Source: Halosimplex halophilum
Lineage (GTDB): Archaea; Halobacteriota; Halobacteria; Halobacteriales; Haloarculaceae
Length of the DNA stretch: 64,000 nucleotides
Reading direction: 5' to 3'
NCBI RefSeq assembly: GCF_004698125.1
Contig: NZ_SRHV01000005.1
Location: 186,001-250,000 of the forward strand
Positions 10,576 to 40,344 of this stretch are shown here, piece by piece; the stretch's first letter is position 1, and every line of letters begins with the position of its first letter. Position numbers and translations under genes: made by a program. The notes beneath the pieces are model-generated. The model searched no databases, was not told the DNA's origin, and worked only from the letters and a program-made list of their open reading frames with translations.

Positions 10576-11523
10576 ATGGAACGAATGACGAACGGAAATT
10601 CAGTGAATTCGATGGCGAACGAGACTACGGCAGTCGGGTCACGCACGGGTGAGTCGTTTAGTGAACTGTCGATCTTGGCCGATACTGGCCACGAGAACAT
10701 CCCATCGCTCGAACAGGACGCGTATCATCACCGACAGATCGAAGGTGATCGGACGGATGTCGAGATCGTCACCCGGGCGCTGGAACTGGAGATGAACGTC
10801 GTGCTCAAGGGCCCGCCGGGGGTCGGGAAGAGCTTCCTCACACGGTATATCTGCGCGATGACCAACCGGCCGCTGTACCGCGTGACGCTCTCCGAGACGA
10901 CGTACAAGGAGGACCTGCTGGGTCACCTCCATCTGGTGAGTTCCGACGGCGGGGACACGGTCACGGAGTGGATCGACGGGCCGCTCACCCGGGCCGTTCG
11001 AGCGGGTGGGGTCCTGTTGCTCGACGAGATCAACGCGGCGGACGCCAACACCGTGGCGGCGCTGAACGCCGTGATGGAACAACGGGCGACCCGCTCGCTC
11101 ACCATCCCCCAGACCGGCGAACAGATCACGCCCCACGAGGAGTTCCGCGTCGTCGCAACGTCCAACCCGGGCTATCAGGGCACCTACGAGCTGAACGACG
11201 CCTTCGAGGACCGGTTCCGGCACGTGAAACTCTCGTACCTGCCCCAGTCGGTCGAAGCGGACCTGATCTTCGACCGGACAGACCTGGACAGGGGGAAAGA
11301 AGCGCAGATCGCCGAGCTGGTGTCCTTCGCGAGTCGGCTCCGCGAGGCGTACATGGACGGCGAGCTCTCGACGCCGGTCACGACGCGAGAGCTAGTGCGG
11401 ATCGCCCGGTTCATGGAGGACGACTTCATGCCGCTGCAGGAGGCGGCGCGGAGCGAACTCGTCGCCCGCGTCGACGAGTACGACGAATCGCTCGTCCGAA
11501 CGCTCATCGACAAGCGACTGTAG
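10576..11523 (+). CDS. MoxR/CbbQ-type AAA+ ATPase (first copy)
   Basis: AAA+ ATPase of the MoxR/CbbQ/GvpN group (AAA_5), 315 residues. Walker A GPPGVGKS (79-86), Walker B VLLLDEIN (146-153), sensor-1 ATSNPGYQGTYELNDAFEDRF with the Arg that normally acts as finger. Enzymes of this group act as chaperone-like motors and nearly always work with a VWA-domain partner that recruits a client. The next gene is such a partner and begins on the base after this stop (TAGATG). Starts at 10585 and 10612 are also possible; the first 25 residues look disordered. It is first of six co-oriented genes. It is clearly different from the second AAA protein of the cluster (21494), so it is not a recent duplicate. 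Confidence 0.9.
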   Translation: MERMTNGNSVNSMANETTAVGSRTGESFSELSILADTGHENIPSLEQDAYHHRQIEGDRTDVEIVTRALELEMNVVLKGPPGVGKSFLTRYICAMTNRPLYRVTLSETTYKEDLLGHLHLVSSDGGDTVTEWIDGPLTRAVRAGGVLLLDEINAADANTVAALNAVMEQRATRSLTIPQTGEQITPHEEFRVVATSNPGYQGTYELNDAFEDRFRHVKLSYLPQSVEADLIFDRTDLDRGKEAQIAELVSFASRLREAYMDGELSTPVTTRELVRIARFMEDDFMPLQEAARSELVARVDEYDESLVRTLIDKRL

Positions 11524-13419
11524 ATGCACCTGACAGAGGAGACCAGCACCGCCGACCTCGCCGCGCTTTCGACGCCCGAGCGGGCGTCCAAGGAGCGCCG
11601 CCGCGAACTCGAACGTCTCGCGTCGCTCTGTACGGACCGGGGGACGAACGTGACTGTCGCGCTTGACGAAGACCGGGCGCTGGCACGACCCGACGAGGAG
11701 GGACACGATGAGGCGTACGAGATCCTGATCCCCACGGAGAAATACGAGCAGTACGGAACCGACCTTCCACAGGGGCTCTGGGACCGGTCACTGCAGGTGG
11801 CGTTCCTGTTCCACGAACTCGGCCACGTCTACTACTCCGATTTCGACCGGTTCGGCGAGTGTCTGGAGACCGTCGGCGGCCGGTGGCGCGACCTGTTCCG
11901 GATGGTGTACAACACGGTCGAGGACGCGGTCGTCGAAACCCAGGTGGCCAACGAGTTCAACGTCACCGGCGATTTCGTCGTCCTCAACGAAGTGCTCGCC
12001 GAGCGCGCCGACCGCCGACACCGCCAGTACGTCGAACTGTTCGACCTCGAGACGGTCGACGCCGACCCCGTCCAGTCCTACACCGTCTTCGAAGCGCTGG
12101 CGGTCGGGCTGCTCGACCGGGGGTTCGTGGACAGCGGGCGGTTCGAGGCGATCGTCGACCCGGCGAACGAGCGGCGCGTCGTCCACAACGGCCGGCGAGC
12201 GGCGCTCGTCGACCTGGTTCCGGCGATGGACGACTACGTGACCGAGATGCTGTCCGAACCCAGCGGGACGAGACGCGTCGACCGGGCGCGCGAGTTCTTC
12301 GAGACCGCGAGAGCCGCGTTCGAGTCGCTCCCGCCGCTGCAGAGCACCCGACTCCAGACGGCACCGGTCCGTCCCGCGGATGCGCGGGCACGGCAGCGCT
12401 GGGGCGTCGAGCCGGCGGACGAACTCCCCGATAGACGAGCGGCCAGCGAACACGTCACCGGCGACCGACGCGGCGAGCGGGCGACACAGCCTAGAACCGG
12501 GCGGGGGACCGAGGCGGGTGCTCCTGATGACCACCGTCCGCCCGGAACGCTCGAAGACGAGACTGTTCGCCGCGTCGCTCGGCAGCGAACGCGGGCGCAG
12601 GCCTCACGGGGAACCGCGAGGCGGTCGCCGCTTGAACGGGAGGCACGGCGACTGCTCGGGATCGTCGACGACACGACGGACCTCGAAAAAGTCGTTGTCG
12701 TCGATCCGGTCGAGGAAGGGGATACGGAGCGATGGACCGCGGCCGTCGATCGGTCGCGCAAGCTCCAGCAGGACCTGGCGACGCAGCTCAGGCGCGAGCG
12801 GCGGCCCCGGGACACGGGCGGGCACCGCACCGGTCGCCTCGACGGCCGACGACTGGTCGCGGCGACCCGCGGAACCCAGCGCGTGTTCACTCGCCGCGAG
12901 TCCGGCACGATGAAAGACTACTCCTGTCTCGTCGTCCTCGACCGGTCCGGGTCGATGGACGGCGACCCGATCCGAACGGCCGAGACGGCGACCGCGCAGC
13001 TCGCACACGCGTTGTTCGAAGTGGGCGTCGACGTCTCCGTCCTGTCGGTCTGGGAGGGCCATCCCTGTCTCGAAGTCCCGTTCGGCGCACGCCCCGCGGA
13101 CCACGTCGACCGCCTGATGACCGAGCGCGCGAACTGGGGGACGCCGCTGTCGACAGCGGTCGCGGTGAGTCGACAACGGATCGACCGCGGCGACGGCTCG
13201 TACCCGTTCGTCGTCGTCGTTACCGACGGTGAACCCGACGACCCGACGCGGTACCGGTCGGAGCTCGAAAAGTGTACGTTCCCGGTGTTCGGCGTGTACA
13301 TCGGGGCGGAACCGGGAGCGCACACCGAGTTCTTCGACCAGATCATCTACGCGGATACGGACTCGCTCGAACGGACGCTCCAGCGGCTCGTCAGGACGCT
13401 GCTCTCGACGGAGGCCTGA
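11524..13419 (+). CDS. VWA-domain protein with N-terminal HELGH metallopeptidase-like domain
   Basis: 631 residues. The N-terminal half contains FHELGHVYYSDF with HELGH at 97-101, a zinc-protease HExxH motif in a helical domain. The middle (about 290-400) is Arg/Gly/Thr-rich and probably disordered. The C-terminal VWA domain starts at about 463 with an intact MIDAS: D473-R-S475-G-S477, and TDGEPDD with Asp568. The architecture resembles proteins of the putative-metallopeptidase plus VWA-like (DUF2201) type, which are usually encoded beside MoxR ATPases, as here (start abuts the AAA stop). Probable role: client-binding partner of the ATPase. Whether the HELGH site is catalytic is unknown. Confidence 0.85.
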   Translation: MHLTEETSTADLAALSTPERASKERRRELERLASLCTDRGTNVTVALDEDRALARPDEEGHDEAYEILIPTEKYEQYGTDLPQGLWDRSLQVAFLFHELGHVYYSDFDRFGECLETVGGRWRDLFRMVYNTVEDAVVETQVANEFNVTGDFVVLNEVLAERADRRHRQYVELFDLETVDADPVQSYTVFEALAVGLLDRGFVDSGRFEAIVDPANERRVVHNGRRAALVDLVPAMDDYVTEMLSEPSGTRRVDRAREFFETARAAFESLPPLQSTRLQTAPVRPADARARQRWGVEPADELPDRRAASEHVTGDRRGERATQPRTGRGTEAGAPDDHRPPGTLEDETVRRVARQRTRAQASRGTARRSPLEREARRLLGIVDDTTDLEKVVVVDPVEEGDTERWTAAVDRSRKLQQDLATQLRRERRPRDTGGHRTGRLDGRRLVAATRGTQRVFTRRESGTMKDYSCLVVLDRSGSMDGDPIRTAETATAQLAHALFEVGVDVSVLSVWEGHPCLEVPFGARPADHVDRLMTERANWGTPLSTAVAVSRQRIDRGDGSYPFVVVVTDGEPDDPTRYRSELEKCTFPVFGVYIGAEPGAHTEFFDQIIYADTDSLERTLQRLVRTLLSTEA

Positions 13420-13423
13420 TCCC

Positions 13424-16400
13424 GTGACGGGCGAATCACCGAGACAACTACGCGCCGCACTCGCGACCGGACGTTCGACGCCCGACGACGTTATCGACCG
13501 CGCGCTCGCGCACCTCGACGCCGAACCAGACCCGGTACGCGAACAGGCGCTCCGGACCCTCGTCGCGGCGACGGAGACGCGTCCGGACCGCGTCATCGAC
13601 GCCGTCGACACGGTCGAGTCATCGTTACGTCCGGGGCGCGCACTGACCCCCGAGGAACTGGCCGCGCTGCGCGGTCTCGCCCGTCGACGGCCGCGCGCCC
13701 TCTCGCCGCTGGTGGACTCGCTCGGAACGGCGCTCTCGAACCCCGCCGAGTCAGAAGTCCGTCCCGCGCTCGCTGCTGCGCTCCTCGGTGACCTCGGTGA
13801 GGCTGCGCCAGGCGTCGTGAAACCGGCTCTCGGGCCGCTCGTGGGCCTCACCGAGAGTGCGGTGACGGACACCGCGGTCGAGGCGGCGTGGGCCGTGACG
13901 AGAACCGCGACGGACGAACCCGCGATGCTCCGTCCGGTCATCGCCGGTCGAGTCTGGGACCTCGACAGTGACGACCCCGCGACTATCGTCGACGCGCTCG
14001 AAACCCTCGGCCGGATCGGGTGGATCCTTCCCGACCACCTCGCCGGTCTTGACGAGGTCGCGGCGCGTGTCGACCACCCCGTATCCGATGTGCGGGCAAC
14101 GGCGATTGAAGCGCTGGGGCGTGTCGCGGACATCCAGCGAACCGCGACGCTCGGAACCCCCCGTCCGGACCGCGTCGAACCGTATCTGGACCGGATCGCC
14201 GCTCGGCTGGCGGATCCGGACTCCGACGTCCGAGGCGCGGCCGCGATCGCGCTGAAGCAGGTCGCTCGCCAGAACTCCAGCGCAGTCCGCGAATACCGCG
14301 ACGACCTCCTGCGGGTGACCGATGACGACGACTGGGAAGTCCGTCACGCCGCGCTCAAAGCACTCGAGTACACGTTCGATCCCGCCACCGTCGACTTACA
14401 CCGGTTACGGGAACGAGTCCTCCCGCGTCTCGCCGACGGCGACGGCGATGTCGAGGGGGCTGCGATCAGCCTGCTCCTGACCGTCGTCGAGGAGATCCGG
14501 ACGGATTCCCCCGACATCGCGGCCCACGTTGTCGACATGCTGGTCTGGGCTCAATTCACGTCGCAAGGCCTCTTCGAGACCCTGAACCCGCTCTACGAAC
14601 TCGAGGACCGCGGCGTTACGCTCCCCGACATCCCGCGGTACGTGGAACTCGCCCGAGCGATCTCCGAGATGGGCGGCTTCGCGGACCAGCAGGCGACGGC
14701 GAAACTGTGCGGCGTTATCGCTCGCCAGTCACCCGACCACCGATTGGCGGCGATCGGGATACTACAGTCGCTCCTCGCGGACGACGGTGAAGGGGCTCGC
14801 AGACAGGTGCTCGAAGAGTTCGAGACGCTCGTCGAAGCCGATCCGGCCGTCGCTCCCACGCTCTGGCACGTTACCGAGAGCGTCTTCAAATACGACCCCA
14901 CAGTGAGAGACGATGCGGCGCGCGTACTGACGGCGTGTGACACGCGGAACCCGGCGTTCCTCGGCGATGCTATCGAATTGCAGCGTCGCTTCCTTCGAGA
15001 CGAGCTGGAGAGCGACGGCGAATCCGAGGACGAAGACGAGGACGGGGACGGTGACCTGGGCGATCTGTTCGGCTCCGAACCGAGTGGGCCTTCGCTCGAG
15101 CCGTTCGTCGACGCGTCACCACAGCTCGTAACTGACGCCGCGCTGACGCTGCTGGGCTCTTTCCCGACCGGACATGACTCTACGGAGTCCAGCGCGCAAC
15201 TGCTCGCCCGGGCCGTTGCGAACGGCGGCACTATCGACCGGGAAACTGCCGAAACCCTCGGGGATATCGTCCGTGCCGAAGACACGTCACCGCCGGCCGT
15301 CGCGTGGCTCTCTACGGGTCTTCTCCTCGGCACAGCGGACACGGAGATACGCGACCGGGCTATCGACCGGCTTCACTCGTTCGCCGAACGCGACGAGGAC
15401 ACACCGACCCTCGCCTGTCTCCGCCTCCTCGCGGACCACACACCGAGATTTGCCGCCCGTATTCTGGTAAATCACCCGCCGATCGCTACGCTGCCGGAAA
15501 TGAACGCCGAAACCCTGGCGGAGATCGTCACCGCTCATCCCCGCCTGTATCTCCGCTGTCGGGGCCGCGAATCGCCGTTCGGCGCCCGTCCGATAGCCCC
15601 TGGATACGCGAACGACACGGGATGGCTCGGCGGACTCGCCGAGACCATTCCCCAGACGGTCCCCGCGGCGAAGTGGCTCCGGGACGGGTTCTGGAGCGAC
15701 GACGGCGAGCTCACGGCGAGTTTACTCGAAGCCGTCGGCCGTGATGCTGCCGCGCCCGGTGACGGCGAACTGGCACCGTGGACCGCACACCCGAGCCCCG
15801 ATGTCCGCCGTGCTGCCACCGCCCTCGGCGAAGACGGCGCTGAACCTTCGGAGTCCTTGCCCACCCATCTCGAGGGCCCCGAAGACGCCACGATGGAGCA
15901 GGTCGACGAGATCGCGACCCATCTCGCGGCGACCGATCCCGACCACTGCCGGCGTGGGGCCGAACTGCTGGTAACTATCGGCGCCCACGATCCGGACCTT
16001 CGTCCCTACGTTCGCCAGCACCTCCTCGCGAGCGCCGTCGCCCTCGACGAGGCGGCGGCACCGGACACGCTCTTCGGGGCGCTCGCAACTCTCGCGCCCG
16101 AGCCCGCGGGTGGTTCCGCACCGGGGCTCGAATCGATCCCGCCCGGCGCTGTCGGACGAGACGCGCTCTCCCCCGTGATACGGCGGTACGCGCGATTCGG
16201 GACGCCGCCCGTCCGAGACGTTGCACTGTGTACGTTGCGCTCGCTCCCAGCGGAAACGGCCGATTCACCGGTCGAAGACGTGCTCGTCGAACGACTGCGC
16301 GACCCGGACGCCGTCGTCCGCGCGCAAGCCGCGCGAACAGTGGCTCACCTCGTCGGCGACGGACTCGATGTCACGACGCCGCTCGTCGACGCGGCCGCGG

Positions 16401-17863
16401 ACGCGCTCGACGGGCCGCGCCACGTCACGATCGCCTGCTGCGAAGCGCTGGGTCACTGTGGAGCCGTCGACCCGACCGTCACTGACCGCGCCGTGTCGGA
16501 ACTCGAAACCCGGCTTCGCGCCCGCGAACGAGGCGTCCGACGGGCCGCAGCCACCGCGATCGCCCACATCGGTGACGTCGAAGCCGGCGCGCTCGCGCCT
16601 ATCACAGACACGCTCACCGAACGGTTCTGCCGGGACCGTGTCGTCCGGGGCGCACTCCTCCCGGCGCTAGCGACGCTTCCCCCGGACGAGATTCCGAGAC
16701 GCGACCGCGTTGCCGAGACGGCGCTCGCGGCACTCGTAGAGACGGACCGTCCACCAGTCAGTCAAGCCGCCGGCCGCCTCCTCGCCGCCATCGCCGACGG
16801 CTCTCCCGGGTCGGTACGCAGACATCTCGACGCCATGTCCGACCGTCTGGAGGACCGATACGACGACGCGATCGTCTCTGATCTCGCTGACGTGGAGGTG
16901 CCACCGCTCTCGCTGTACTGGCTGCTTCGAGTCGTCGGCACCTGTACACGGGACAGTCCTCCCGTCGCCGACCGGTTCGACTGGCTGATCTCGGAAGCAG
17001 TTGGTTACATGGACGGCTCGGCCGCTGGCGGAACGTACGGAGTGTCCAGCGACGACCACGTCACCGCACGCGCCCTGGCTCGGGCTACGGCACGCGTGGC
17101 GGCGCTCGGTGGATTAGACTGCTACGAGACGGTACTCGAACGCTGGCCCCAAGACCCGACGAAACCGGACCCGGAACCGGCAGAGACTGCACACTTCCTC
17201 ACGATCACGGAAGGGGCGTCCCGCACGGACACGCTAGAAACGTTCGTCGAGCACGCGTCGTCGGATCGCGTCGACTCTGTCATCGCGGAACTCCTCGATC
17301 ACGAGATAACGCTCAATCGAAACGAAGCGATCTTCGACTCCCTCACAACGCTGCTCCCGCTCACAGGGGACAGACGGCTTCACCGGAGCGGTATCTCGGT
17401 CCTGCTCGACGCTAGCTCCGACCGCAACTGGGGAATTCGTGTCGATGCCATCGAAACGCTGACCGAACTCGGTGAGACAGATGTCGTCCCTGCTGACGAA
17501 GTCATCGCACACCTTTTCGGTCTGTTCAGCGATGGGACTCGGGTCCGCGAAACTGTCGTCGAAGCGGTGGTGAACCTGTTACAGCACGCGGAACTCGACC
17601 CCGAGACGGTGCTCACAGCTTCAGTCGAGTACTACAGTGAGTCGCGCGACCGGGGGAACGTGCGAAAGACGGCAATTCGTCTCGTCGGTGAACTCGGCAC
17701 GCGTTACCCTGCCGTCCGTGACCGGGCAGTGACGACGCTTCTGGAGGCGGTCTCGGACGACGACCGACAGGTTCGCCGGCAGGCGGCCGACTGTCTCGCG
17801 GAACTGGAAGCCGTCGGGCAGGACCCACTCCCGCCGTATCAGGACCGTATCGAAGACCGCTAG
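13424..17863 (+). CDS. Giant HEAT-repeat-like protein, 1479 residues
   Basis: Almost entirely helical repeats of the HEAT/armadillo-like type. Units end in segments such as DPDSDVRGAAAIALKQVA, DDDWEVRHAALKALEYTF, DPDAVVRAQAARTVAHLV and DDDRQVRRQAADCLAELE, with a period of about 40 residues, from the N terminus to the last residues. One acidic insert (SEDEDEDGDGDLGDLFG) interrupts the array near 600. No enzyme motif or membrane segment was seen. Such solenoids are scaffolds or large binding surfaces. The GTG at 13424 lies four bases after the VWA stop, so the gene is in the same operon. G+C is somewhat lower than in the housekeeping genes. The repeat class is certain enough; the partner is unknown. 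Confidence 0.85.
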   Translation: MTGESPRQLRAALATGRSTPDDVIDRALAHLDAEPDPVREQALRTLVAATETRPDRVIDAVDTVESSLRPGRALTPEELAALRGLARRRPRALSPLVDSLGTALSNPAESEVRPALAAALLGDLGEAAPGVVKPALGPLVGLTESAVTDTAVEAAWAVTRTATDEPAMLRPVIAGRVWDLDSDDPATIVDALETLGRIGWILPDHLAGLDEVAARVDHPVSDVRATAIEALGRVADIQRTATLGTPRPDRVEPYLDRIAARLADPDSDVRGAAAIALKQVARQNSSAVREYRDDLLRVTDDDDWEVRHAALKALEYTFDPATVDLHRLRERVLPRLADGDGDVEGAAISLLLTVVEEIRTDSPDIAAHVVDMLVWAQFTSQGLFETLNPLYELEDRGVTLPDIPRYVELARAISEMGGFADQQATAKLCGVIARQSPDHRLAAIGILQSLLADDGEGARRQVLEEFETLVEADPAVAPTLWHVTESVFKYDPTVRDDAARVLTACDTRNPAFLGDAIELQRRFLRDELESDGESEDEDEDGDGDLGDLFGSEPSGPSLEPFVDASPQLVTDAALTLLGSFPTGHDSTESSAQLLARAVANGGTIDRETAETLGDIVRAEDTSPPAVAWLSTGLLLGTADTEIRDRAIDRLHSFAERDEDTPTLACLRLLADHTPRFAARILVNHPPIATLPEMNAETLAEIVTAHPRLYLRCRGRESPFGARPIAPGYANDTGWLGGLAETIPQTVPAAKWLRDGFWSDDGELTASLLEAVGRDAAAPGDGELAPWTAHPSPDVRRAATALGEDGAEPSESLPTHLEGPEDATMEQVDEIATHLAATDPDHCRRGAELLVTIGAHDPDLRPYVRQHLLASAVALDEAAAPDTLFGALATLAPEPAGGSAPGLESIPPGAVGRDALSPVIRRYARFGTPPVRDVALCTLRSLPAETADSPVEDVLVERLRDPDAVVRAQAARTVAHLVGDGLDVTTPLVDAAADALDGPRHVTIACCEALGHCGAVDPTVTDRAVSELETRLRARERGVRRAAATAIAHIGDVEAGALAPITDTLTERFCRDRVVRGALLPALATLPPDEIPRRDRVAETALAALVETDRPPVSQAAGRLLAAIADGSPGSVRRHLDAMSDRLEDRYDDAIVSDLADVEVPPLSLYWLLRVVGTCTRDSPPVADRFDWLISEAVGYMDGSAAGGTYGVSSDDHVTARALARATARVAALGGLDCYETVLERWPQDPTKPDPEPAETAHFLTITEGASRTDTLETFVEHASSDRVDSVIAELLDHEITLNRNEAIFDSLTTLLPLTGDRRLHRSGISVLLDASSDRNWGIRVDAIETLTELGETDVVPADEVIAHLFGLFSDGTRVRETVVEAVVNLLQHAELDPETVLTASVEYYSESRDRGNVRKTAIRLVGELGTRYPAVRDRAVTTLLEAVSDDDRQVRRQAADCLAELEAVGQDPLPPYQDRIEDR

Positions 17864-18053
17864 CTGGTGTGGCGGAGCCGCGTTTCGGCCCGACTCTCCT
17901 CTTCGACGGTCCGTTTTGCGGCGGTCCAGTCGGGCACCGCTCGCCGCAGGCGAGGCGGTCCACGGAGCGATCGGTCGCCAGTGACCGGTGATCTAACAGT
18001 CCGCCCATCGAGCGAGACCGCGATCAGGTCTGTCCTTTGTCACTACCCGTACC

Positions 18054-18059
18054 TATAAG
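18054..18059 (+). promoter_or_regulatory. TATA box of the tubulin-like gene
   Basis: TATAAG preceded by CC. It predicts transcription from about 18080-18083, downstream of the ATG at 18073 and just before the ATG at 18085, so a leaderless message starting at 18085 is likely. It also shows that the tubulin-like gene has its own promoter, separate from the upstream three genes. Confidence 0.55.
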
Positions 18060-18084
18060 TCGCTAAATTGTAATGTGTCGTAGG

Positions 18085-21000
18085 ATGGCTGTTCAGGACG
18101 AGTTCATCGATTTTCCGGATGTCGTTGTCGGTATCGGGGGTGCAGGAAAAAGCGTTGTTTACGACGCATTAAATACGGACTGGATTCTGGAGGCGGGACT
18201 CGATGACCAGCAGGGAAGCGGGCTGTTCGACGCGTACGTACTCGATACTGACCGGAGTCAGAGATCAACCGATCTAGACCAGATCGACGAAATTTCACGA
18301 CGGATCGAAGAGACTGCACAGGCCCTCGGACAGGGGGGCGTTTCCCATCGGCTGGAGTATCTCGATCTAGCCGATGCCGCAGATGCGGTCGCAAATACAG
18401 ACCTGCTCAGACAGGACCAGATCGCCCAACAGGTCATCGATTCCAGTGGACTTTCGACGTGGTGGCTGACTGCCGACGACACCGAGTGGGGTCTCGAGTC
18501 GTTCGCCCACGGAACGATACGTAAACGGGCGATCGCCAAGGGACTGTTTCACGCCGCGAAAGCGCGCGACGGGATGGACAGCTTACTGTCCTCCCTCAAC
18601 GCGGGCGAAGACGCCGTCATTGTCGCCGGGCTGGGCGGGGGCACGGGATCCGGTGTGGCGTTAGATCTCGCGCGAGAAGCGGCGGCTGGAGCGAGTATCC
18701 ACCTGTTGGGACTGCTCCCATCTCGGGATAGCAGCTCGGACGCACTGATCAACGCCTATACGACGCTTTCGGAACTCGAATACTGCTTTCTAACTGATCG
18801 ATCCCCGTTCGAGAGCGTCGTGCTCGTCGATCCGCCCGGTGATGACTGGAGCGAAACGACGACGGTCGCAGTCAACGCCTTAGTCGGACACGCCAATCTA
18901 TCACGCGGAGCTCGACGGCTGAACTCCTCCCTCGATGTGGGTCCCCCCAGGCATGCTCCATTTACCGTTGCGACTGCTGGTATCTCACAGTACACGACCC
19001 CGTCAATTGCGGAGTCTGAGGCGGTGTTTACTCAATTCCTCGAGGATAGAACCGAGTCTCTCGACCACGAGCTACAGTTCTACGGAGCGCTCGAGGCGGA
19101 ATTACCGAATTACCTCGATACATACGAGACGGGTGATACCGGCGTGGAAACGGTCTTCGACGAGGGGCAACCGGAGCACCAGAACGTGGTTTTCTCTCGA
19201 TTACAGGACCTGGAGGTGTTTGACCTGACCGAGCGAATTGAACACGTCCGTTCGCTACTCGAGGATGAGGTGCTCGGATCGGTTGCGACCGGTGCGATCG
19301 AAGACTGGCTGCACTGGTTCGATCAACTCGAGAGTAGTGTAACCGCGCCCAAATCTGATCTGTCGCCGTCCGAAGAGCGTCGCAGGAAACTGCGGATCAT
19401 CTACGACAGGGACCCGGATATCGCGCCGGAGAAGTACGACGACATCACGTCGCAGAAGCTGACGGAATGCTTGAATTCCGAGCTTGCGGCTATCCGAGCG
19501 CGCGCTCGCCTGGTCGCAAGCGCACGGCTATTCGAAGCGGACCGCCCTCAAGACCTGCTCCGGGCGATACTCGACCGCGAGCATGGTCCCATCGTGCCGC
19601 AGCTGTTCGATGCGCGAGACGAGCTCCGCGACCGACTCGATGAGCTTTCGGACCGAGCTACAACGATCGAGCAAACTCGAGACGAGGTGGCGCATCTCGT
19701 CGAAGACGCTTCGCACGACTGGCTAGCAGACGTGCATACCGATCTCGAGTGGGTAGCCGCGTTCGAGAGCAATTATCGCAGGCTGGAAGAGCTACATACC
19801 GCGCTAGAGGAAGCGCTCGAACGCTTCGCTCACGATATCACGCAAGCCAGCTCTCCGGAAAACAGCCCGGAGTTGGAATTCACCCAGTTTCGGGAGCTGA
19901 ACGACTTACGGCGGGAACTGGGTATGGAACCGATAGACGAGACTCGTATTCGGAACAACCTCGAAGCAGTCAGAGCAGCCAGGGAAATATATCTCAGCTC
20001 TGAACAGGCACACCTGCTGAAACGGTGGCTACGCGGGGACGAGTTACGCGACCAATATCACGACGCTATCCGGGGGATTCAGGACGACCTGTTCGAAGTC
20101 GAACCGAACGAACCGTTCGAAAGCCGATTTCGCTGTCGGTTCGTCGGTGGCTTCGACGCATCTAGGGTTCGAGATAAGTACGAGAAACGCATTGATCGAA
20201 TCCTCACAGCGCTCGATGAACGTCGCGAAGCGCTTCGGGACGAACTCCTCGACAGGGTTCCCGACGAAGTAAACGGTGTTCGGTGGCCACCCGACGCCGA
20301 ACGAGTCGGCCCCGAGCTTGAATCGGCGATTCAATCGCTGGAAACGGACTCGGACATCGAATCCGAGATCCGGACGATTGCGGAGCGTCGTCTGCGCGTT
20401 CAGTGGGTCGAACCGTTTGACGAGGCGCTCGACGCTACCGACGACCGGCTCGCCGATCTCGAACAGCGGCTCGAATTTCTCCGGGCCGTAGAGGAGATCA
20501 ATCAAACGCATGCGACCGAGTTCACGCGCCGAGATGAGGATCACTGGGAGCACATCCGTTCGGAACTCGATGCGGTGATGTCGACCGACGATACGGAGAT
20601 CTTCCGGCAGCTCTCTCCCGGGAGTCCAGAACGTTTCGTACAAGCGTCAGCACTGGCTGATGTCGAACTACGGGACGAAGACCGAGCGGCTCTGGAGGAG
20701 GCCCTTGCTGACTCTGTTTTCGCACAGGCCGACCGACTTCCGGTCGTGGAGGAGACGTACCACTCCGAGGGACAGCGAGTCGATCACCGGCGGGTCGAAT
20801 CGGTATTCCTGAGTTCCGGGTTCGAACCCGGTGGCCCGCTCGACGGGCTAGAACTGTCCGAGGTCGGGGGGCCTCTGCGCCAGCGGTTCGAGGCCGACGG
20901 AGACACGTATCGGTCAACTGCTCTCCCCGGTGGCCCTCCGTGGGGCGTATCCGCGATGACTTTTGTCGGTGGCGTCTCGCTGGACGATCTCGAACCGGTC

Positions 21001-21273
21001 GCCGGTTCGGGAGGGTACAAACAAGCGTACGAGAGAGCCGTCGAGCGGGCGGACCCACCATTACTTCACCACGCGTACGGGTTGGACGGCGACGATACCC
21101 GGTTCGTCGAGGAGGGCGACGGGATGGTCGTCGCTCGGCAGTCGTTGCTGGACCTCACTGACGAGCGGGACCTGCAGTTACTACGAGACCCCGATGTTGC
21201 CGACTCTCTTCTCGAGGATCACTATCGGTTCACACCGTTCCATAGCAGCGTTACGGCCGGATCTGAACAGTAG
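18085..21273 (+). CDS. Large tubulin/FtsZ-superfamily protein
   Basis: 1062 residues (1066 if started at 18073). The N-terminal part is a tubulin-like GTPase. VVVGIGGAGKSVVYDAL near 14-30 occupies the first nucleotide loop. AGLGGGTGSGVALDLAREA (G-box GGGTGSG at 184-190, counted from 18085) is the tubulin/FtsZ signature. The remaining roughly 650 residues are highly charged and helical, with coiled-coil-like stretches, and no membrane segment. The size and layout fit the 'tubulin-like' family (PF13809-type/FtsZ-like 1), not FtsZ or CetZ, which are about 350-400 residues. G+C is visibly lower (about 50-60% in many stretches). The flanking MoxR-VWA pairs suggest a multiprotein machine. Filament formation and GTP use are inferred from the family. 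Confidence 0.85.
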   Translation: MAVQDEFIDFPDVVVGIGGAGKSVVYDALNTDWILEAGLDDQQGSGLFDAYVLDTDRSQRSTDLDQIDEISRRIEETAQALGQGGVSHRLEYLDLADAADAVANTDLLRQDQIAQQVIDSSGLSTWWLTADDTEWGLESFAHGTIRKRAIAKGLFHAAKARDGMDSLLSSLNAGEDAVIVAGLGGGTGSGVALDLAREAAAGASIHLLGLLPSRDSSSDALINAYTTLSELEYCFLTDRSPFESVVLVDPPGDDWSETTTVAVNALVGHANLSRGARRLNSSLDVGPPRHAPFTVATAGISQYTTPSIAESEAVFTQFLEDRTESLDHELQFYGALEAELPNYLDTYETGDTGVETVFDEGQPEHQNVVFSRLQDLEVFDLTERIEHVRSLLEDEVLGSVATGAIEDWLHWFDQLESSVTAPKSDLSPSEERRRKLRIIYDRDPDIAPEKYDDITSQKLTECLNSELAAIRARARLVASARLFEADRPQDLLRAILDREHGPIVPQLFDARDELRDRLDELSDRATTIEQTRDEVAHLVEDASHDWLADVHTDLEWVAAFESNYRRLEELHTALEEALERFAHDITQASSPENSPELEFTQFRELNDLRRELGMEPIDETRIRNNLEAVRAAREIYLSSEQAHLLKRWLRGDELRDQYHDAIRGIQDDLFEVEPNEPFESRFRCRFVGGFDASRVRDKYEKRIDRILTALDERREALRDELLDRVPDEVNGVRWPPDAERVGPELESAIQSLETDSDIESEIRTIAERRLRVQWVEPFDEALDATDDRLADLEQRLEFLRAVEEINQTHATEFTRRDEDHWEHIRSELDAVMSTDDTEIFRQLSPGSPERFVQASALADVELRDEDRAALEEALADSVFAQADRLPVVEETYHSEGQRVDHRRVESVFLSSGFEPGGPLDGLELSEVGGPLRQRFEADGDTYRSTALPGGPPWGVSAMTFVGGVSLDDLEPVAGSGGYKQAYERAVERADPPLLHHAYGLDGDDTRFVEEGDGMVVARQSLLDLTDERDLQLLRDPDVADSLLEDHYRFTPFHSSVTAGSEQ

Positions 21274-21493
21274 AGGGCGCATGTATACGCGGCGACGCTC
21301 GCTATCTCTGTTTCGATCGGTGTCTCGCGCCTGCGACCGGTATCGCCGTTTTGAAGTGGTAACCTGATTCTCACACAACTGAATGGATCGGGGACCGTTC
21401 CATCGAGGGTGGGAATATCTCTATCAGTGAGTCGAAAACTGTTGGTAAACTACGAAGACACCCGACGGTGACACCATCGATCCGGCGTTTACA

Positions 21494-22546
21494 ATGACCG
21501 CACAGGAAAGCCAGAGCGGGGAACTGATACCCCACAGGAGGCGCGAGGATTTCGATTACGCGGTCCCGGAGAGCGTGCCGCCGTTTCACGACACGGGTCA
21601 GTTGCGGCGGGTGAAGACAGTCGTTCGGAACGCCCGTGACGTCGAGAAACTCCCGCGGTTCTGGTTCACCGGGCCGACGGGCTGCGGGAAGACGACGGCG
21701 GTCCGCCGGCTCGCCCAGGACCTGGACGCGCCGCTGTTCACGGTGCAGGGGCTGTACGACATCCGCGAGACCGACCTGCTCGGCAGTCCGACGATGCTCG
21801 ACGGGACGGTCTACTGGCAGGACGGGCCGGTGACCAGAGCGCTCAGGTCGAGCCAGCAGCGCCGGACGGTCCTCCTGTTCGACGAGGTGAACCGGGCTCG
21901 ACCGGAGGCGAAGGGTATCCTGTTCCCGATCCTCGACGGGCGTGCCAAAGTTCACACCGGGCGAGGGAACGAGATCGTCGAGGCCGACCCGTACAACCTG
22001 GTCGTCGTCGTCACGACCAACGAGGGCCCGGAGTACTTCGTCGAACAGCTCGATCTCGCCGAGCAACGCCGTTACGGCAGCAAGTTCGAGATGACGTACC
22101 TCGCGCAGTCGGACTTCGAGGCCGCGGTCGAACTGGTCACGAACCGGACGGCGGTTCCCGGGCCGCTCGTACGGGTCGTCCTCACCGCAGTCAACGAGGT
22201 ACGTGACACCGCGGCGCGCGCGGGGTCGTCGGTCGAGCGGGGGATCCCGACGGCGCTGGTGCTCGAGTGGCTGAAGACCGCCCGCATCTACGACGACGAG
22301 GGGATCGACGACCCGATGATGACCGCTTTCCGAGACGCGCTACTCCGGCCGTTCTACGACGAGCCGGACGCAGTCTCCACGGTCGTCTCGACGGTCCGGT
22401 CGTACGTCCAGAGCGCCCCGCTCGGCGAGGACGCCGCCAGGGAGTGGGTGGCGTCCGACCTCGCCGGCCGCGTCTCGGGCGACGACCGCTCGACGCTCGT
22501 CGAGAACGTGCTCGCCGGGAGCGCGATCGACGAGGACGACATCTGA
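21494..22546 (+). CDS. MoxR-type AAA+ ATPase (second copy)
   Basis: 350 residues. Walker A GPTGCGKTT (60-68), Walker B VLLFDEVNRA with D130-E131, sensor-1 VVTTNEGPEYFVEQLDLAEQRR. The core resembles AAA_5/MoxR proteins, but the sequence around the motifs differs from the first AAA of the cluster (GPTGCGKTT against GPPGVGKS, DEVNRA against DEINAA). The two probably serve different VWA partners. Its stop is three bases before the start of the second VWA gene. A TATA-like GGTAAACT near 21441 indicates a separate promoter. G+C returns to about 68-70% here. Confidence 0.9.
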   Translation: MTAQESQSGELIPHRRREDFDYAVPESVPPFHDTGQLRRVKTVVRNARDVEKLPRFWFTGPTGCGKTTAVRRLAQDLDAPLFTVQGLYDIRETDLLGSPTMLDGTVYWQDGPVTRALRSSQQRRTVLLFDEVNRARPEAKGILFPILDGRAKVHTGRGNEIVEADPYNLVVVVTTNEGPEYFVEQLDLAEQRRYGSKFEMTYLAQSDFEAAVELVTNRTAVPGPLVRVVLTAVNEVRDTAARAGSSVERGIPTALVLEWLKTARIYDDEGIDDPMMTAFRDALLRPFYDEPDAVSTVVSTVRSYVQSAPLGEDAAREWVASDLAGRVSGDDRSTLVENVLAGSAIDEDDI

Positions 22547-22549
22547 CCG

Positions 22550-25462
22550 ATGACCGCGGGCGAGGACGGTTCCGACGCCGGGCGGGCGCAACTCCGGCGC
22601 GTGCTCGAGAGCCTCGGGTCGGTGTACGGCGACGACGAGGTCGACATCGACTTCGGCGACGAGCTCGGGGTCGAGGAGCGGCGAACGTGGGAGGACGGTC
22701 CGTCTCACGAGTTCGTACTCCCGGCCAGGGTCGACGAGTACCTCGACGCCGACCTCTCGCGCGAGCGGGAGTACGAACTGCTGCTCGACACGGTCAACCA
22801 CCTGTCGTACTGTCGGCGGGTGGACAGCTGGGACCGGACCGAGTCGTTCGCGGCGGGGACCGCCCACCCGGAACCGGTCGCGACGTTCGTCCACCGGATG
22901 GTCGAGCACGCCCACGTCACCGCGGCCCGCCTCTCGGAGTACCGGGGGCTCGCGGGGGCATACGCCCGGCGGATGGAGGCGACGTTCGACGAGCAGCCCC
23001 GCGTGGACGGGCTCCGGGAGGACGCCGCGCTGCTCGAGGGCGTCCGCGAGCTTGCCTACACCGGGCGGGTCGCGGGGCTGGAGTCGGCCTCCGAGAACGT
23101 CCGCGGGACGCTGTCGTACGTCGGGACGGAACTCGACCGCGTCCGCGAACCCGGGGCCTCCGCCGAGCTCCGTGACGAGGTCGCGAACCGGGTGCTGGAG
23201 ACGGTGGTCGACCGGCTGTACCATCCCCGGACGGCCGAGCGACACCTCCGCGAGGAGCTGGACCTCCCGTTTCAACACGCCGCGACGCTGGCTCCGGAGA
23301 CGGACGCCGAACCGCGGGAGACCGGATCGGAGGAGTCCGACGAGCCGACCACGGCGAGCGACATCGTCGAGCTGATCGGGACGGTCCCGCTCCTCCCCGT
23401 CGTCCTCGCGGCACCGTACCTCGGCTTCGAGGACGCGCTCGAATCGTTCTACAGGCCGCTCCCCCAGGGGCCGTTCAACCTGCTCTTCCTCCTCTATCCG
23501 CTCCTGTTCCCGGTCTTCGTCGTCTGGGGGGCGTGTCGGTCCGTTACGGGACGCCTCGGCTACTGGGAGCCGATAGTCGACCGCGCCTCCGGCGCGTGGA
23601 ACGGCATCACGGACGCGACCGCCCGGCTCCGGGGGGGCCTCAGGGGCGGGATCGAACGGGTTCGGAGCGCCGTCGCCTCGTCCGCGGGCGGGGCCGCCGA
23701 CGCCGTAAACGCCCGTCTCCCCGGCGATCGGGCGGTCGATCTGGACTCGCTGCTGATGGGGTACACCCTGCTGTTCGTGCTTCCGTACGAACTCGCCGAG
23801 CACGTCGTCGGTGAGGACCACGTCGACCCGTTCCTCGAACCGTTCGCGGACTGGGGGCCGTCGGAGGGCATCGCGGTTGTCCCGTACGTGCTCTTCGTGC
23901 CGCCCCTGGTCGCCGCTCTGTTCCCGGTGTTCCTGGTCTGGCTGCTCGTCCGGCTGGCGGCGCTCGCCGCCGGCGTCTGGGAGCCGCTCGTCGCTCGCGC
24001 GGCGGGGCTGTGGGACGCCGCCGTGGCGACGCTCCGTCGGTTCGGGAACGCGGTCCGGGCGGGACTGCGCCGCGTCCCGGCGCTGATCGGATCCGCTCTG
24101 CGCCGAACGGCCGAACTACTGCGCCGGTGGTGGAACGGGCTCGTCTACGTCGCTCGGCGCGGCCTCGCGCGTGCCCGCGGCGACCACTGGAAGCGCGATC
24201 TCCCCGAACGCCTCGACGAAGAGCGTCTCGCGGCTCAGACCGGGGACGACACGGCCGCCGTTGCCGAACCCGGGCGGGGCGAGACCAACGGTTCCGACGG
24301 GAAAAACGGGGGCCGCGACGAAGACGACCCCGGAAGCGGCGACGGGGACGCGGCAACGGAGTCGGCGCCCGGGGACGCGACGACCGACGGCGTCGAGACC
24401 GACGAGGAGGACGTGGTCGCCGAGGCGGGCGAGTCGAACGAACGGAGGGACGACGCGTCGGTCGCCGCCGGGGATCCCGCGGAAACGGCCCCGGCGGGCG
24501 CTGGTGACGCCGATTTCACCGAGCGGCTCCTGGCCGACGCGGAGCGGCGGTCGGCATCGTCGCGGGGGGAAGTGAGCATCGTGGACGTCGAATACGAGGA
24601 GAGCGACGGGACGGTCATCGACGACGCGCTGGGCGACCTCGCGAGCCTGGACCGGCGGACGAGCAGCGAACTGCAGGGGCTCAGGGCCGACCGCGACGAC
24701 CGGATCGGCGGGCACGGCGACCCACAGGAGGTGCTGGACGCGATGAGCGAGCGGGGGCTCGACGAGACGATCCGGGAACTGCTCGCGCAGTTCCCGCCGG
24801 AGGAGCGCCGCGAGGTGCGGGCACACACCGGCCATCGGCTCGACCTGCCGGCGGTCGCGCGGTCGGCGGGCGGGCGCCTCCCGAACGACGGCCTGTTCAC
24901 TCGCCGCCGTCACACCGGGACCGGGTCGCGGTGTCTCGGCGTGGCGATCGATCTCAGCGGCAGCATGGACGGGTTCGAGGCGAAAGTCGCCCTCGCGTCG
25001 CTCGCAAGCGCGGCCGACCTCCTCGGCGACGAGTTCGTCGCCGCCGGGTTCCACGGGCGGGACCGTTCGGTCCCGCTCGTGACCGGCCCGAACGAACCGT
25101 TCGAGCCCGCGCACCTCTCCTCGGTCGGAACCGGCGGGAGCACTCCGCTCGCGGACGGGATCCGGGAAGGGCGCCGACTGCTGCGCGGCGCGAACGCGAA
25201 CGAACGGATACTGCTAGTGGTCACGGACGGCGCGCCGAACGTCGGCCTGTCGGACAGTTCGGACCCGAAGTCGGACGCCCGCGAACAGATCGAACGGAGC
25301 CGACGGGACGGGATCGGGGTCATCGGCGTCGGCGTCGACTCGGCGTACGGGATGTCGGAGCTCTTCGGTGACGACGCCTACGTCGAAGTGAACGACCGGG
25401 CGTTCGCGGACCGTCTGTTGGACGTCTATCGCGACCAGGTCCTCCGGACGCAGCGTCACTGA
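22550..25462 (+). CDS. Membrane-embedded VWA-domain protein, 970 residues
   Basis: The N-terminal helical domain (1-270) carries HxxxxH-like and charged segments but no clear enzyme motif. Hydrophobic stretches follow at about 273-292, 309-328, 399-415 and 440-476. Two of them head an internal repeat: GYWEPIVDRASGAWNGI (about 337-353) matches GVWEPLVARAAGLWDAA (about 475-491). A long acidic disordered linker (about 550-680) leads to a C-terminal VWA domain with intact MIDAS D801-L-S803-G-S805 and TDGAPN. Probably the membrane-bound partner of the AAA ATPase at 21494, with which it is cotranscribed. It would tie the machine to the membrane. The function is inferred from the family and neighbours. 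Confidence 0.87.
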   Translation: MTAGEDGSDAGRAQLRRVLESLGSVYGDDEVDIDFGDELGVEERRTWEDGPSHEFVLPARVDEYLDADLSREREYELLLDTVNHLSYCRRVDSWDRTESFAAGTAHPEPVATFVHRMVEHAHVTAARLSEYRGLAGAYARRMEATFDEQPRVDGLREDAALLEGVRELAYTGRVAGLESASENVRGTLSYVGTELDRVREPGASAELRDEVANRVLETVVDRLYHPRTAERHLREELDLPFQHAATLAPETDAEPRETGSEESDEPTTASDIVELIGTVPLLPVVLAAPYLGFEDALESFYRPLPQGPFNLLFLLYPLLFPVFVVWGACRSVTGRLGYWEPIVDRASGAWNGITDATARLRGGLRGGIERVRSAVASSAGGAADAVNARLPGDRAVDLDSLLMGYTLLFVLPYELAEHVVGEDHVDPFLEPFADWGPSEGIAVVPYVLFVPPLVAALFPVFLVWLLVRLAALAAGVWEPLVARAAGLWDAAVATLRRFGNAVRAGLRRVPALIGSALRRTAELLRRWWNGLVYVARRGLARARGDHWKRDLPERLDEERLAAQTGDDTAAVAEPGRGETNGSDGKNGGRDEDDPGSGDGDAATESAPGDATTDGVETDEEDVVAEAGESNERRDDASVAAGDPAETAPAGAGDADFTERLLADAERRSASSRGEVSIVDVEYEESDGTVIDDALGDLASLDRRTSSELQGLRADRDDRIGGHGDPQEVLDAMSERGLDETIRELLAQFPPEERREVRAHTGHRLDLPAVARSAGGRLPNDGLFTRRRHTGTGSRCLGVAIDLSGSMDGFEAKVALASLASAADLLGDEFVAAGFHGRDRSVPLVTGPNEPFEPAHLSSVGTGGSTPLADGIREGRRLLRGANANERILLVVTDGAPNVGLSDSSDPKSDAREQIERSRRDGIGVIGVGVDSAYGMSELFGDDAYVEVNDRAFADRLLDVYRDQVLRTQRH

Positions 25463-32851: not shown

Positions 32852-34174
32852 ATGACACCGGACCCGCTGTACGTCGCGTCCGTCGCGGAAACGGTCCGGA
32901 CTTCGCTGCGGAACACCGACGACCCGGGCGAGATCCGCAGGTACCTGTACGAACTCCGAGATGCGCTCTACGAGGCGGAGTTCGACGGCGACCTGTCCGA
33001 GGAACTGCTCGACGAACTGGAAGGAGACATCGACAGACTGAGCCGCGAGTCGCTCGGTCCGGTCGAGGAGTCCTTCCGGAGCAAGGTGGTGGACCACGTG
33101 TACCGCGTCGAGCGGTTCTGTCAGCGCCGCCGGGACGACGGGTCGAGTCCGGACGGGTCGGACCGCGGCGGGTCCGGCGGGAGCGGGTCCAGCGGGAGCG
33201 AACCGGACGAGACGGACGGTCGGACGGTCACGTCGACCGACCAGACGGTCAGGTCGACCAGCAGTCAGAACATCACGATCAACTTCGGCCCCTCGGGGGA
33301 CGGCCCGTCGTTCGACGGCGATGACTGGGAGTCCGATGACGGGGCGGGTTCGTCCGGGGCGGTCGACTGGAACACCGGAAGCACGGGGTCGACCGAAACG
33401 GGATCGACGTTCGGGGACGACGACGACGGGTCGCCCTCGCCGGGGTCGAACGGGAGTTTCGACGACGATGCGCAGTTTCCGGATCCGCTCGAACCGCACG
33501 AGTTCGAGGTCAGGGACGTTCAGTTCGACACCGCGAAAGCGGTGGAGGTCGTCAACGACTACGCCGAGGGTAGCCCGTACACGTACAACACCTCACCGAT
33601 CGGCCCCGACCCCTCGGCGTACGACCTCGGGCAGTTCGCACCGGCGCTGAAGCAATACGTCGAACTGATCAACATGGGCGCGGGAGCCGACAGCAGCGAC
33701 TCCTACCTGTATCCCGACAAGGAGTGGCCCAGGAAGCTCCGCCAGTGGGAGGCGTTCAGGGAGTACAGATACGGCAACGCGGGCGCGTCGGTGGCGAGCC
33801 AGTTCGGCGCCTCGCTGCTACACAGCCTGGACCTCCCGTGGGTCGTAAAAAAGGAGGAGGAGGTGGGCGGCGACGGGTGGACATCGACCGAGTACATCAC
33901 GTACGTCGGGATCCGGTCCGGCGAGCTGTGGAACTTCAAGCGCGGACTGAAACGGTGTTACGACGGATTCCAGTCGAGCCACACGTGCCACGACGGGATG
34001 GACTACGTGGACACGTTCTTCGAGCGACGGGGCTACGAGTTCCTGCCGATCCTCGGCTCGTGGGCGGTGAAGATGCCGGGCGTGTTCAGCGTCGCGGGGC
34101 GGCCCGGGGTGGCGGACGGCTCCCCGATCCGGTACGACGAGGTCGAGGAGATGGCGAGCTGGGAACGGTTCTGA
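32852..34174 (+). CDS. Unknown protein with locus-specific N-terminal module (left copy)
   Basis: 440 residues, no known domain recognised. Residues 1-100 (DPLYVASVAETVR, RRYLYELRDAL, VVDHVYRVERFCQRR) are clearly homologous to the N terminus of the protein encoded at 39507-40322 at the other end of this locus. A Ser/Gly/Asp/Thr-rich disordered stretch (about 105-210) separates this helical module from a C-terminal domain of about 220 residues that contains many aromatic residues and no membrane segment. The gene points into the locus and is convergent with the coiled-coil gene at 34253. The shared module suggests an adaptor for assembly with its sister protein or a common partner. The C-terminal function is unknown. 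Confidence 0.8.
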   Translation: MTPDPLYVASVAETVRTSLRNTDDPGEIRRYLYELRDALYEAEFDGDLSEELLDELEGDIDRLSRESLGPVEESFRSKVVDHVYRVERFCQRRRDDGSSPDGSDRGGSGGSGSSGSEPDETDGRTVTSTDQTVRSTSSQNITINFGPSGDGPSFDGDDWESDDGAGSSGAVDWNTGSTGSTETGSTFGDDDDGSPSPGSNGSFDDDAQFPDPLEPHEFEVRDVQFDTAKAVEVVNDYAEGSPYTYNTSPIGPDPSAYDLGQFAPALKQYVELINMGAGADSSDSYLYPDKEWPRKLRQWEAFREYRYGNAGASVASQFGASLLHSLDLPWVVKKEEEVGGDGWTSTEYITYVGIRSGELWNFKRGLKRCYDGFQSSHTCHDGMDYVDTFFERRGYEFLPILGSWAVKMPGVFSVAGRPGVADGSPIRYDEVEEMASWERF

Positions 34175-38189: not shown

Positions 38190-39425
38190 ATGAGCACGAA
38201 CGGTTCCGACTACGACCGGTGGGTCGCACAGGGCTACAGAGACGACGCCGAGGCCGCCGAGGCGGCCGCGGAGGACCACCTCGACGCGGACGAGCCGGCC
38301 GCCGCCGCCGCCGAGTTCGAGCGGGCCGCCGACTGCCTCCGGGCGTACGAGGACTACACCGGCAACTCCCGGAGCGACGAGATCGACCGGCTCCGCCGGC
38401 GCGCCGCGGCCGCCCGTCCCCAGTCGAGCGACGACGGCGGAGCCGGGAGCGGCGGGGAGGCGGCGTCCGGGGCCGACTCGGACCGGCTCCGTCGGCGCGT
38501 CGAGTCGTTCGAGACGACGACGGGGGTCGACTGGGAGGACATCGGCGGGCTCGAAGAGACGAAAGAGCGGATCTGCCACGAGATCGGCCTCGGCGCGGCC
38601 GCGGGGCTGCCCGAGGCGGTGCAGCCGTCGGACCGGCTCCTCCTGTTCGGGCCGCCGGGAACGGGGAAGACGCTGCTGGCCAGCGCCGTCGCCAGCGGGA
38701 CCGAGACGACGTTCTTCAACGTCGAGCTGGGCGGCATCCTGTCGAAGTGGCACGGGGAGTCCTCGCAGCTCGTCTCCACGCTGTTCGACGTGGCCCGCGA
38801 ACACACGCCCGCGGTCGTGTTCGTCGACGAGATCGACGCGCTCACGCAGTCCAGAGGGGACGGCTCCGACTCGGCAAGCCGGCGCGTGTTGAACTCGCTG
38901 CTGACGGAGCTGGACGGGATCGGCGGGGACGCCGACGGGTTCCTGATGGTCGTCGGCAGCTCCAACCGACCGATGGACCTCGACGACGCCGTGGTTCGGC
39001 GGTTCGACACGCGGATCTACGTGCCGCTCCCCGACGTCGACGGCGCCGCCGAGATCGTCCGGATCCACACCGTCGACGGCGGCGTCGAGTTCGAGGGGAC
39101 GCCGGCGGCGTACGCGTTCGGGCGGACCGATCCGGCGGACAGCGTCGAGCACACGCTGGCCGGCGCCTGCGTCGAGCGCGGGTTCACCGGCAGCGACATC
39201 GAGACGCTGTGTCGGACGGCGATCTCCGAGATGGTGCGCGAGCGGAACCCGGAGCTGGCCGAGCGGGCCCGCGATGACCTCGGCGCCCGCGACGACGGGA
39301 GCGTCGACCTGCGACCGTTGCGCCCCGACGACTTCCGCGTCGCCTTCGACACGGTGTCGGCCTCCGTTCCCGAATCGACCGTTCGCGAGTGTCGGTCGTG
39401 GGCCGAGGAGTTCGGGTCCGGATGA
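38190..39425 (+). CDS. Vps4/CdvC-like AAA ATPase with helical N-terminal region
   Basis: 411 residues. The N-terminal 75 residues are two or three helices (YDRWVAQGYRDDAEAAEAAAE, AAAAAEFERAADCLRAYEDY), in the place and size of an MIT domain. A Gly/Ser linker follows. The AAA module starts at VDWEDIGGLEETK (113-125), with Walker A GPPGTGKT (154-161), pore loop SKWHGESSQLV, Walker B VVFVDEIDAL with D213-E214, sensor-1 SSNRP, arginine fingers R270-R271-F and IYVPLPD. SKW-GES, SRR and RRF-RIYVPLPD are characteristic of the meiotic/Vps4 clade. Only one AAA domain is present, unlike Cdc48. It likely disassembles or remodels a protein polymer; the adjacent 211-residue protein is the obvious candidate. 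Clade placement is by motif only. Confidence 0.85.
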   Translation: MSTNGSDYDRWVAQGYRDDAEAAEAAAEDHLDADEPAAAAAEFERAADCLRAYEDYTGNSRSDEIDRLRRRAAAARPQSSDDGGAGSGGEAASGADSDRLRRRVESFETTTGVDWEDIGGLEETKERICHEIGLGAAAGLPEAVQPSDRLLLFGPPGTGKTLLASAVASGTETTFFNVELGGILSKWHGESSQLVSTLFDVAREHTPAVVFVDEIDALTQSRGDGSDSASRRVLNSLLTELDGIGGDADGFLMVVGSSNRPMDLDDAVVRRFDTRIYVPLPDVDGAAEIVRIHTVDGGVEFEGTPAAYAFGRTDPADSVEHTLAGACVERGFTGSDIETLCRTAISEMVRERNPELAERARDDLGARDDGSVDLRPLRPDDFRVAFDTVSASVPESTVRECRSWAEEFGSG

Positions 39426-40322: not shown

Positions 40323-40344
40323 ACGCGTGCGTTTGCGGAGCATC

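Follow-up and report, generated by a model that had tools for sequence, protein, structure and literature searches.

The question raised by this locus is whether six large neighbouring genes encode one machine or a composite of parts that also occur elsewhere. They lie within a stretch of 64,000 nucleotides (nt) of the haloarchaeon Halosimplex halophilum (contig NZ_SRHV01000005.1, positions 186,001 to 250,000), called here the window, and encode in this order a MoxR-type AAA+ ATPase (AAA1), a vWA protein (VWA1), a HEAT-repeat giant (HEAT), a giant tubulin-like GTPase (TUB), a second MoxR-type ATPase (AAA2) and a membrane-anchored vWA protein (VWA2). A first-pass annotation of the window had described these six co-oriented genes, all of which were recovered (Table 1), and had proposed that they form a single membrane-remodelling or defence machine. 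Of this proposal, an association between a MoxR-vWA-HEAT set and tubulin-like genes holds and recurs in unrelated haloarchaea; however, the cluster consists of three separable modules, A (AAA1-VWA1-HEAT), B (TUB) and C (AAA2-VWA2), and has no fixed six-gene order. The explanation tentatively preferred here is that the cluster may be a composite mobile island of the conflict type, probably directed against viruses, in which predicted MoxR-vWA and tubulin/GTPase conflict systems would be combined.

Three separable modules

Within the modules the genes practically abut, with 0 nt between AAA1 and VWA1, 4 nt between VWA1 and HEAT and 3 nt between AAA2 and VWA2. The HEAT gene begins with GTG at 13424, 4 nt past the end of VWA1, and the 1479 amino acids (aa) first given for its product are borne out. 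Between the modules, the gaps are of 209 nt (HEAT-TUB) and 220 nt (TUB-AAA2). Because of a TATAAG box at 18054-18059, the true start of TUB may be Met5 at 18085, not 18073, and this box and the two long gaps lead to the reading that modules A, B and C are probably three transcription units. The GC content at third codon positions (GC3) is lower in TUB (0.654) than in module A (0.76-0.84) and module C (0.90), which fits separate origins. A single fixed six-gene operon was rejected, since the gene order is unique to this genome and the intermodule gaps exceed 200 nt.

The gaps, the TATA-like box ahead of TUB and the difference in GC3 between TUB (0.65) and module C also favour another explanation, in which three independent accessory modules would have become neighbours within a plastic region, each with its own function and with no joint system. 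It is weighed below against the distribution of each module.

Table 1. Coordinates of the cluster features in the window.
Feature	Position	Strand	Remarks
AAA1: MoxR/CobS/GvpN-type AAA+ ATPase	10576-11523	+	315 aa, AAA_5 4.4e-29; first gene, module A
VWA1: vWA protein, N-terminal HExxH domain	11524-13419	+	631 aa; module A
HEAT: HEAT-repeat solenoid	13424-17863	+	1479 aa, HEAT_2 1e-27; third gene, module A
TATA-like box TATAAG	18054-18059	+	28 nt upstream of TUB Met5, by inspection; putative leaderless promoter
TUB: FtsZl1/Tubulin_2 giant tubulin-like GTPase	18073-21273	+	1066 aa as called; module B
AAA2: second MoxR-type AAA+ ATPase	21494-22546	+	350 aa, AAA_5 8e-22; module C
VWA2: membrane-anchored vWA protein	22550-25462	+	970 aa; module C

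The MoxR-vWA-HEAT triad and its tubulin-like neighbours

Module A is kept as a unit in at least about seven haloarchaeal lineages including the window, mostly on plasmids, in a census drawn from plasmid records, a scan of genome contigs and a sample from the same family. Besides Halosimplex pelagicum, triads were found on Halomicrobium mukohataei pHmuk01 and the LC1Hm plasmid, on plasmids of Natribaculum luteum and Natribaculum longum, on plasmid p117 of Halorubrum BOL3-1 and, among the matches listed, in Haloglomus halophilum and, with broken reading frames, in Halolamina pelagica. All share the order AAA-VWA-HEAT apart from the second Natribaculum copy, Haloglomus (HEAT first) and Halolamina (HEAT divergent). 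Identities in H. pelagicum reach 96% for AAA1, 89% for VWA1 and 76% for HEAT; AAA1 is 74-89% identical in the plasmid triads, and a full-length HEAT homologue directly follows VWA1 in H. pelagicum and on the Halomicrobium plasmids (46.6%). Across about 150 kb of H. pelagicum, hardly anything but the DNA of the triad and a distant GNAT gene matches the first 34 kb of the window. The first-pass annotation had suggested a check of six-gene co-occurrence and order in haloarchaeal genomes: module A emerged as a conserved unit, but the order A+B+C was seen only here. In the draft genome of Halolamina pelagica CDK2, frame breaks split every one of the AAA, vWA, HEAT and tubulin-like genes, a state in which sequencing error and decay are indistinguishable.

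Excluding the window, four of the six lineages have a Tubulin_2 gene no more than about 12 kb from the triad. The H. pelagicum triad and tubulin locus are convergent and less than 1 kb apart; two MoxR-vWA-HEAT triads of N. luteum flank a Tubulin_2 gene (29.8 bits), whose product belongs to a different, shorter subfamily than TUB; and the gap amounts to 12 kb in Halorubrum BOL3-1 and to about 10 kb in Halolamina. The chance of such proximity was roughly estimated, for this small sample, as P ~2e-6 under random placement and 0.006 with 10-fold gene clumping. Tubulin-like genes and the MoxR-vWA-HEAT module are genuinely associated, and the association recurs in unrelated haloarchaea. Found in varied arrangements and well above the chance estimate, it argues against three independent modules, an explanation to which the Halomicrobium triads without a tubulin gene lend support.

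As to the proteins of the triad, the vWA domain of VWA1 is of the CobT/CoxE type (Pfam VWA_2/CobT_C) with an intact metal ion-dependent adhesion site (MIDAS; DRSGS at residue 473), and the HELGH motif first reported for this protein is present at residue 97. Its HExxH, NxxED and key MIDAS residues were invariant in an alignment of seven homologues, and a peptidase activity is possible for the HExxH domain. The best NCBIfam models for AAA1 were GvpN and CobS, all below cut-off (74.5 vs 266.8 and 71.4 vs 558.55), its bpMoxR score was 24.5 bits (cut-off 27), and it also matches CbbQ_C of Pfam. These matches, together with that of the VWA1 profile to CobT structures, speak for an enzyme-activating or cofactor-inserting chaperone of the CbbQO, NorQD or CobST type, in which AAA1-VWA1 would activate a metabolic complex with HEAT as adaptor. 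However, the equivalog scores are far under their cut-offs, the CobT score (20.7 vs 759.05) places the pair outside the CobS/CobT cobaltochelatases, no metabolic client gene recurs beside the triad, and the molybdoenzyme genes 7-12 kb from the Halomicrobium triads are absent at the others, all of which makes such a chaperone very unlikely.

TUB belongs by its sequence to the FtsZl1/Tubulin_2 family, and the FtsZl1 label is given to TUB alone. The tubulin-like family first proposed for it is confirmed at the sequence level by a match to Tubulin_2 (PF13809; 32.3 bits, cut-off 27) and by an intact GGGTGSG motif, whose residues are invariant or almost so in 22 homologues; all 22 match Tubulin_2. 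The profile of these sequences matches TubZ and FtsZ structures (4.7e-7 and 2e-5) and, in hhalign, a haloarchaeal FtsZ-type profile with 96.5% probability over the T4 loop and the following helix. Its positions 400-650 show weak matches to coiled-coil structures, and residues 316-802 form long helices in a low-confidence AlphaFold model from the single sequence. Of 392 genomes of the order, 40 encode TUB homologues, at 25-36% identity, and the genome-contig scan with TUB found no relatives. The closest relative in the tree (support 96/94, long branches) is encoded on a Haloplanus plasmid and adjoins an Mrr nuclease with eight membrane segments.

Module C and the position after the tubulin gene

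At other loci, the gene that follows the tubulin gene encodes, in 20 of 21 cases, a membrane protein of a P-loop family, some members of which have a Walker A motif, and a divergent paralogue often lies on the other side of the tubulin gene. This protein is in line with Makarova and Koonin's membrane GTPase as well as with the DO-GTPases of Kaur et al., and 11 of 26 family members weakly match DO-GTPase2, at E <= 1 (best 0.004). Tubulin-like genes elsewhere mostly stand with it and without MoxR or vWA genes; when the window proteins were compared by tblastn with the other tubulin loci, no relative of AAA1, VWA1, HEAT, AAA2 or VWA2 was detected except in H. pelagicum. A second FtsZl1 gene of the genome that holds the window (C2:94661-98014) is accompanied, in the canonical manner, by two membrane P-loop-family proteins, and also by a PQQ beta-propeller protein.

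In the window, the position after TUB is occupied by AAA2-VWA2, and Pfam detected neither a P-loop GTPase nor a protein kinase among the six cluster genes. That module C sits in the slot of the membrane P-loop protein also argues against independent modules. A more specific form of a joint system would be a tubulin-centred one, in which the membrane MoxR-vWA pair replaced the membrane GTPase and acts with the MoxR-vWA-HEAT triad on tubulin-like filaments at the membrane, blocking infection. Both predicted classes of NTP-dependent conflict system would be directly merged in it, a proposal that is rather doubtful as a whole. Such a swap at the same position, if true, would support the interchangeability of both NTPase types as regulators.

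AAA2 is 45% identical to a Haladaptatus MoxR protein whose gene adjoins a vWA gene. VWA2 scored 20.7 bits with Pfam VWA, marginally under the cut-off, and 1e-6 to 2e-7 with ChlD/cobaltochelatase models; its MIDAS is intact (DLSGS, residue 801), it has no HExxH, and a Haladaptatus homologue is identical at 126 of 358 positions over residues 601-964. The membrane segments first noticed in VWA2 correspond to three or four hydrophobic stretches between residues 268 and 475. The relatives of AAA2-VWA2 are stand-alone pairs on Haladaptatus plasmids, and pairs of this type are found on virus-like plasmids of Natrinema (pNPA70) and Salinigranum. The latter two carry similar gene strings (an S8 peptidase, small proteins, AAA, vWA and further hypothetical proteins), apparently those of a family of virus-like or mobile elements that has such a pair. 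All that H. pelagicum retains is a 55-codon fragment, 58% identical to the VWA2 C-terminus (L128:5931-6095, ~4.0655 Mb) and about 100 kb from the triad, which is possibly a remnant of module C.

The pairs that stand alone in Haladaptatus and the full A+B+C order seen in this genome only are further points for the explanation by independent modules. That explanation is strongest for module C, which is also the chief doubt on the composite reading, since it was found with TUB in one genome only. For the cluster as a whole, however, given the recurrent triad-tubulin proximity and the slot that module C occupies, three unconnected modules are considered fairly unlikely.

The virus-like plasmid pairs bear on one further explanation, in which both MoxR-vWA pairs would be captured genes or relics of haloarchaeal tailed viruses that serve an integrated element in virion assembly or superinfection exclusion. 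AAA1 and VWA1 have homologues in HVTV-1 (gp59 and gp57; 33% identity over 306 and 556 aa, HECGH conserved), and AAA2 is 33-39% identical to AAA proteins of the tailed viruses HCTV-2, HHTV-2 and Hardycor1. However, the cluster contains no capsid, terminase or integrase gene, no relatives were found in viral contigs scanned with the VWA1 and TUB profiles, and the annotation next to the HVTV-1 pair includes neither a HEAT giant nor a tubulin gene. A viral origin of this kind is therefore highly improbable.

A proposed conflict-type island among known systems

The conflict-type reading was preferred because of plasmid carriage, the deviant GC3 of TUB, the recurrence of module A with tubulin-like genes, and neighbours such as E1/E2, nuclease and kinase genes. 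In N. longum and Halolamina, triads or the tubulin genes linked to them have a ThiF E1 gene and two E2-like genes as neighbours; in BOL3-1, Haloplanus, Haloglomus and Natribaculum the neighbours include metallophosphoesterase genes, and HEAT-kinase and PQQ-kinase genes adjoin the Halomicrobium triads. The set common to N. longum (L105:34456-37752) and Halolamina (L130/L131), of ThiF E1, two Prok-E2-like and small genes, is likely a ubiquitin-like conjugation cassette, and on pHmuk01 (L098:6676-9501) the triad adjoins the gene of a HEAT-repeat protein that has a protein kinase fused at its C-terminus. Elsewhere in the window, a classical AAA ATPase gene (38190-39425; AAA 4e-35) was rejected as a cluster member, being 13 kb off with unrelated genes in between; each of the two Halomicrobium plasmids has a homologue (46%) at 4-5 kb from its triad, and a weaker one (35%) is located between the tubulin gene and the triad in Halorubrum BOL3-1. 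The proteins encoded at 32852-34174 and 39507-40415 have a common PDPLYV N-terminal stretch and no Pfam match, and are possible paralogues.

In the mechanism proposed for this conflict-type island, module A would be a MoxR-vWA ternary system of a new kind with the HEAT giant as its third subunit. The HEAT solenoid would sense or scaffold a target, the MIDAS site of VWA1 would hand it to an AAA1 hexamer, and the HExxH domain would possibly cut it. TUB, a tubulin-like GTPase with a putative long helical region, is expected to polymerise, and the membrane MoxR-vWA pair of module C would anchor the filaments at the membrane and drive ATP-dependent remodelling. Once triggered, the system would remodel the membrane or the shape of the cell and thereby halt infection.

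The same parts could form a membrane-remodelling or vesicle machine with no role in defence, in which MoxR-vWA pairs would shape tubulin-like filaments at the membrane. The FtsZl1 membership of TUB, the vWA partners, one of them membrane-bound, the membrane P-loop partners in other loci and the membrane remodelling predicted for FtsZl1 systems (PMC2875224) are in its favour; however, the patchy, largely plasmid-borne triad and the E1/E2, nuclease and kinase neighbours suit a conflict setting better, and such a machine is judged unlikely. The two readings are not mutually exclusive: the first-pass annotation had named both functions, and the neighbours favour the conflict setting, although the sequence cannot choose between them.

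Several points weigh against the composite conflict-type reading. First, the triad survey is incomplete, the Halomicrobium and Haloglomus triads have no nearby tubulin gene, the association statistic depends on six loci and on clumping assumptions, and AAA2-VWA2 stands beside a tubulin gene in one genome only. Second, the cluster has no obvious toxin effector, and no VMAP, iSTAND, FtsH or beta-propeller-vWA fusion of the MoxR-vWA ternary systems (PMC7159879) was detected by Pfam in the six proteins. Third, the similarity of the P-loop proteins to DO-GTPase2 is under the Pfam cut-off, and the AlphaFold models of TUB and of VWA1 (3 sequences), with predicted local distance difference test (pLDDT) values of 39.5 and 36.9, are too poor for a fold search. 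Finally, the PADLOC matches (OloA 4e-13, HEAT-ARM) are weak and repeat-driven, and these identities were set aside as HEAT-repeat cross-matches.

The family links named by the first-pass annotation were correct. In the open-licence literature, Makarova and Koonin (2010, PMC2875224), who predicted that FtsZl1 systems remodel membranes, and Kaur et al. (2020, PMC7159879), who proposed DO-GTPase systems as analogues of MoxR-vWA systems, are the sole close accounts; no paper on this combination was found there, nor any functional study of the FtsZl1 giant tubulins, known since 2010. A 2023 study (PMC10067837) described a MoxR/vWA pair in hyphae-forming haloarchaea and linked it to the systems of Kaur et al. 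The recurrent triad-tubulin link is a concrete partner set for FtsZl1-type giants and, with cultured species at hand (Halomicrobium mukohataei with the triad, Halosimplex pelagicum with triad and tubulin), opens to testing the question of tubulin-like filaments in archaeal immunity or membrane remodelling.

Among the known systems, CobS/CobT, CbbQO, NorQD and GvpN share the AAA+/vWA architecture and give AAA1 and VWA1 their best models (CobS, GvpN, CobT), but the scores are far under the equivalog cut-offs and no chelatase (CobN), rubisco or gas-vesicle genes lie in the cluster. The CobS-CobT-like pairs of haloarchaeal tailed viruses (HVTV-1; Hardycor1, PMC7911831) include homologues of AAA1-VWA1, with the HExxH, and of AAA2, at ~33-39% identity and with no HEAT or tubulin-like partner seen. 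FtsZl1 systems (PMC2875224) resemble the cluster in a Tubulin_2 protein of ~1050 aa with an N-terminal GTPase domain and a remainder that is probably helical here, in vWA partners (VWA1 and VWA2 flank TUB) and in ordinary FtsZ-type genes in the same genome; unlike them, the cluster has no GTPase partner or protein kinase, and its two MoxR ATPases and HEAT giant are not described there. DO-GTPase (GAP1) systems with tubulins (PMC7159879) likewise bring tubulin-like, membrane-associated and vWA proteins together in a mobile neighbourhood, and other haloarchaeal Tubulin_2 loci carry one or two membrane P-loop proteins, but in the window Pfam detected no DO-GTPase or GAP1 in the cluster and a MoxR-vWA pair takes that position. 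MoxR-vWA ternary systems (PMC7159879) resemble the cluster in the MoxR AAA+/vWA core and its conserved third protein, in repeats that form superstructures and in an accessory, mobile setting; in contrast, the third component is here a separate HEAT giant, and the HExxH domain of VWA1, the tubulin-like gene and the second pair are further differences. The cluster was not filed under the four ternary systems of Kaur et al. or the DO-GTPase systems because it lacks the third parts that define them. That module A, with its giant scaffold protein, is found again close to tubulin relatives in distantly related haloarchaea suggests a so far undescribed variant of predicted archaeal conflict or defence machinery.

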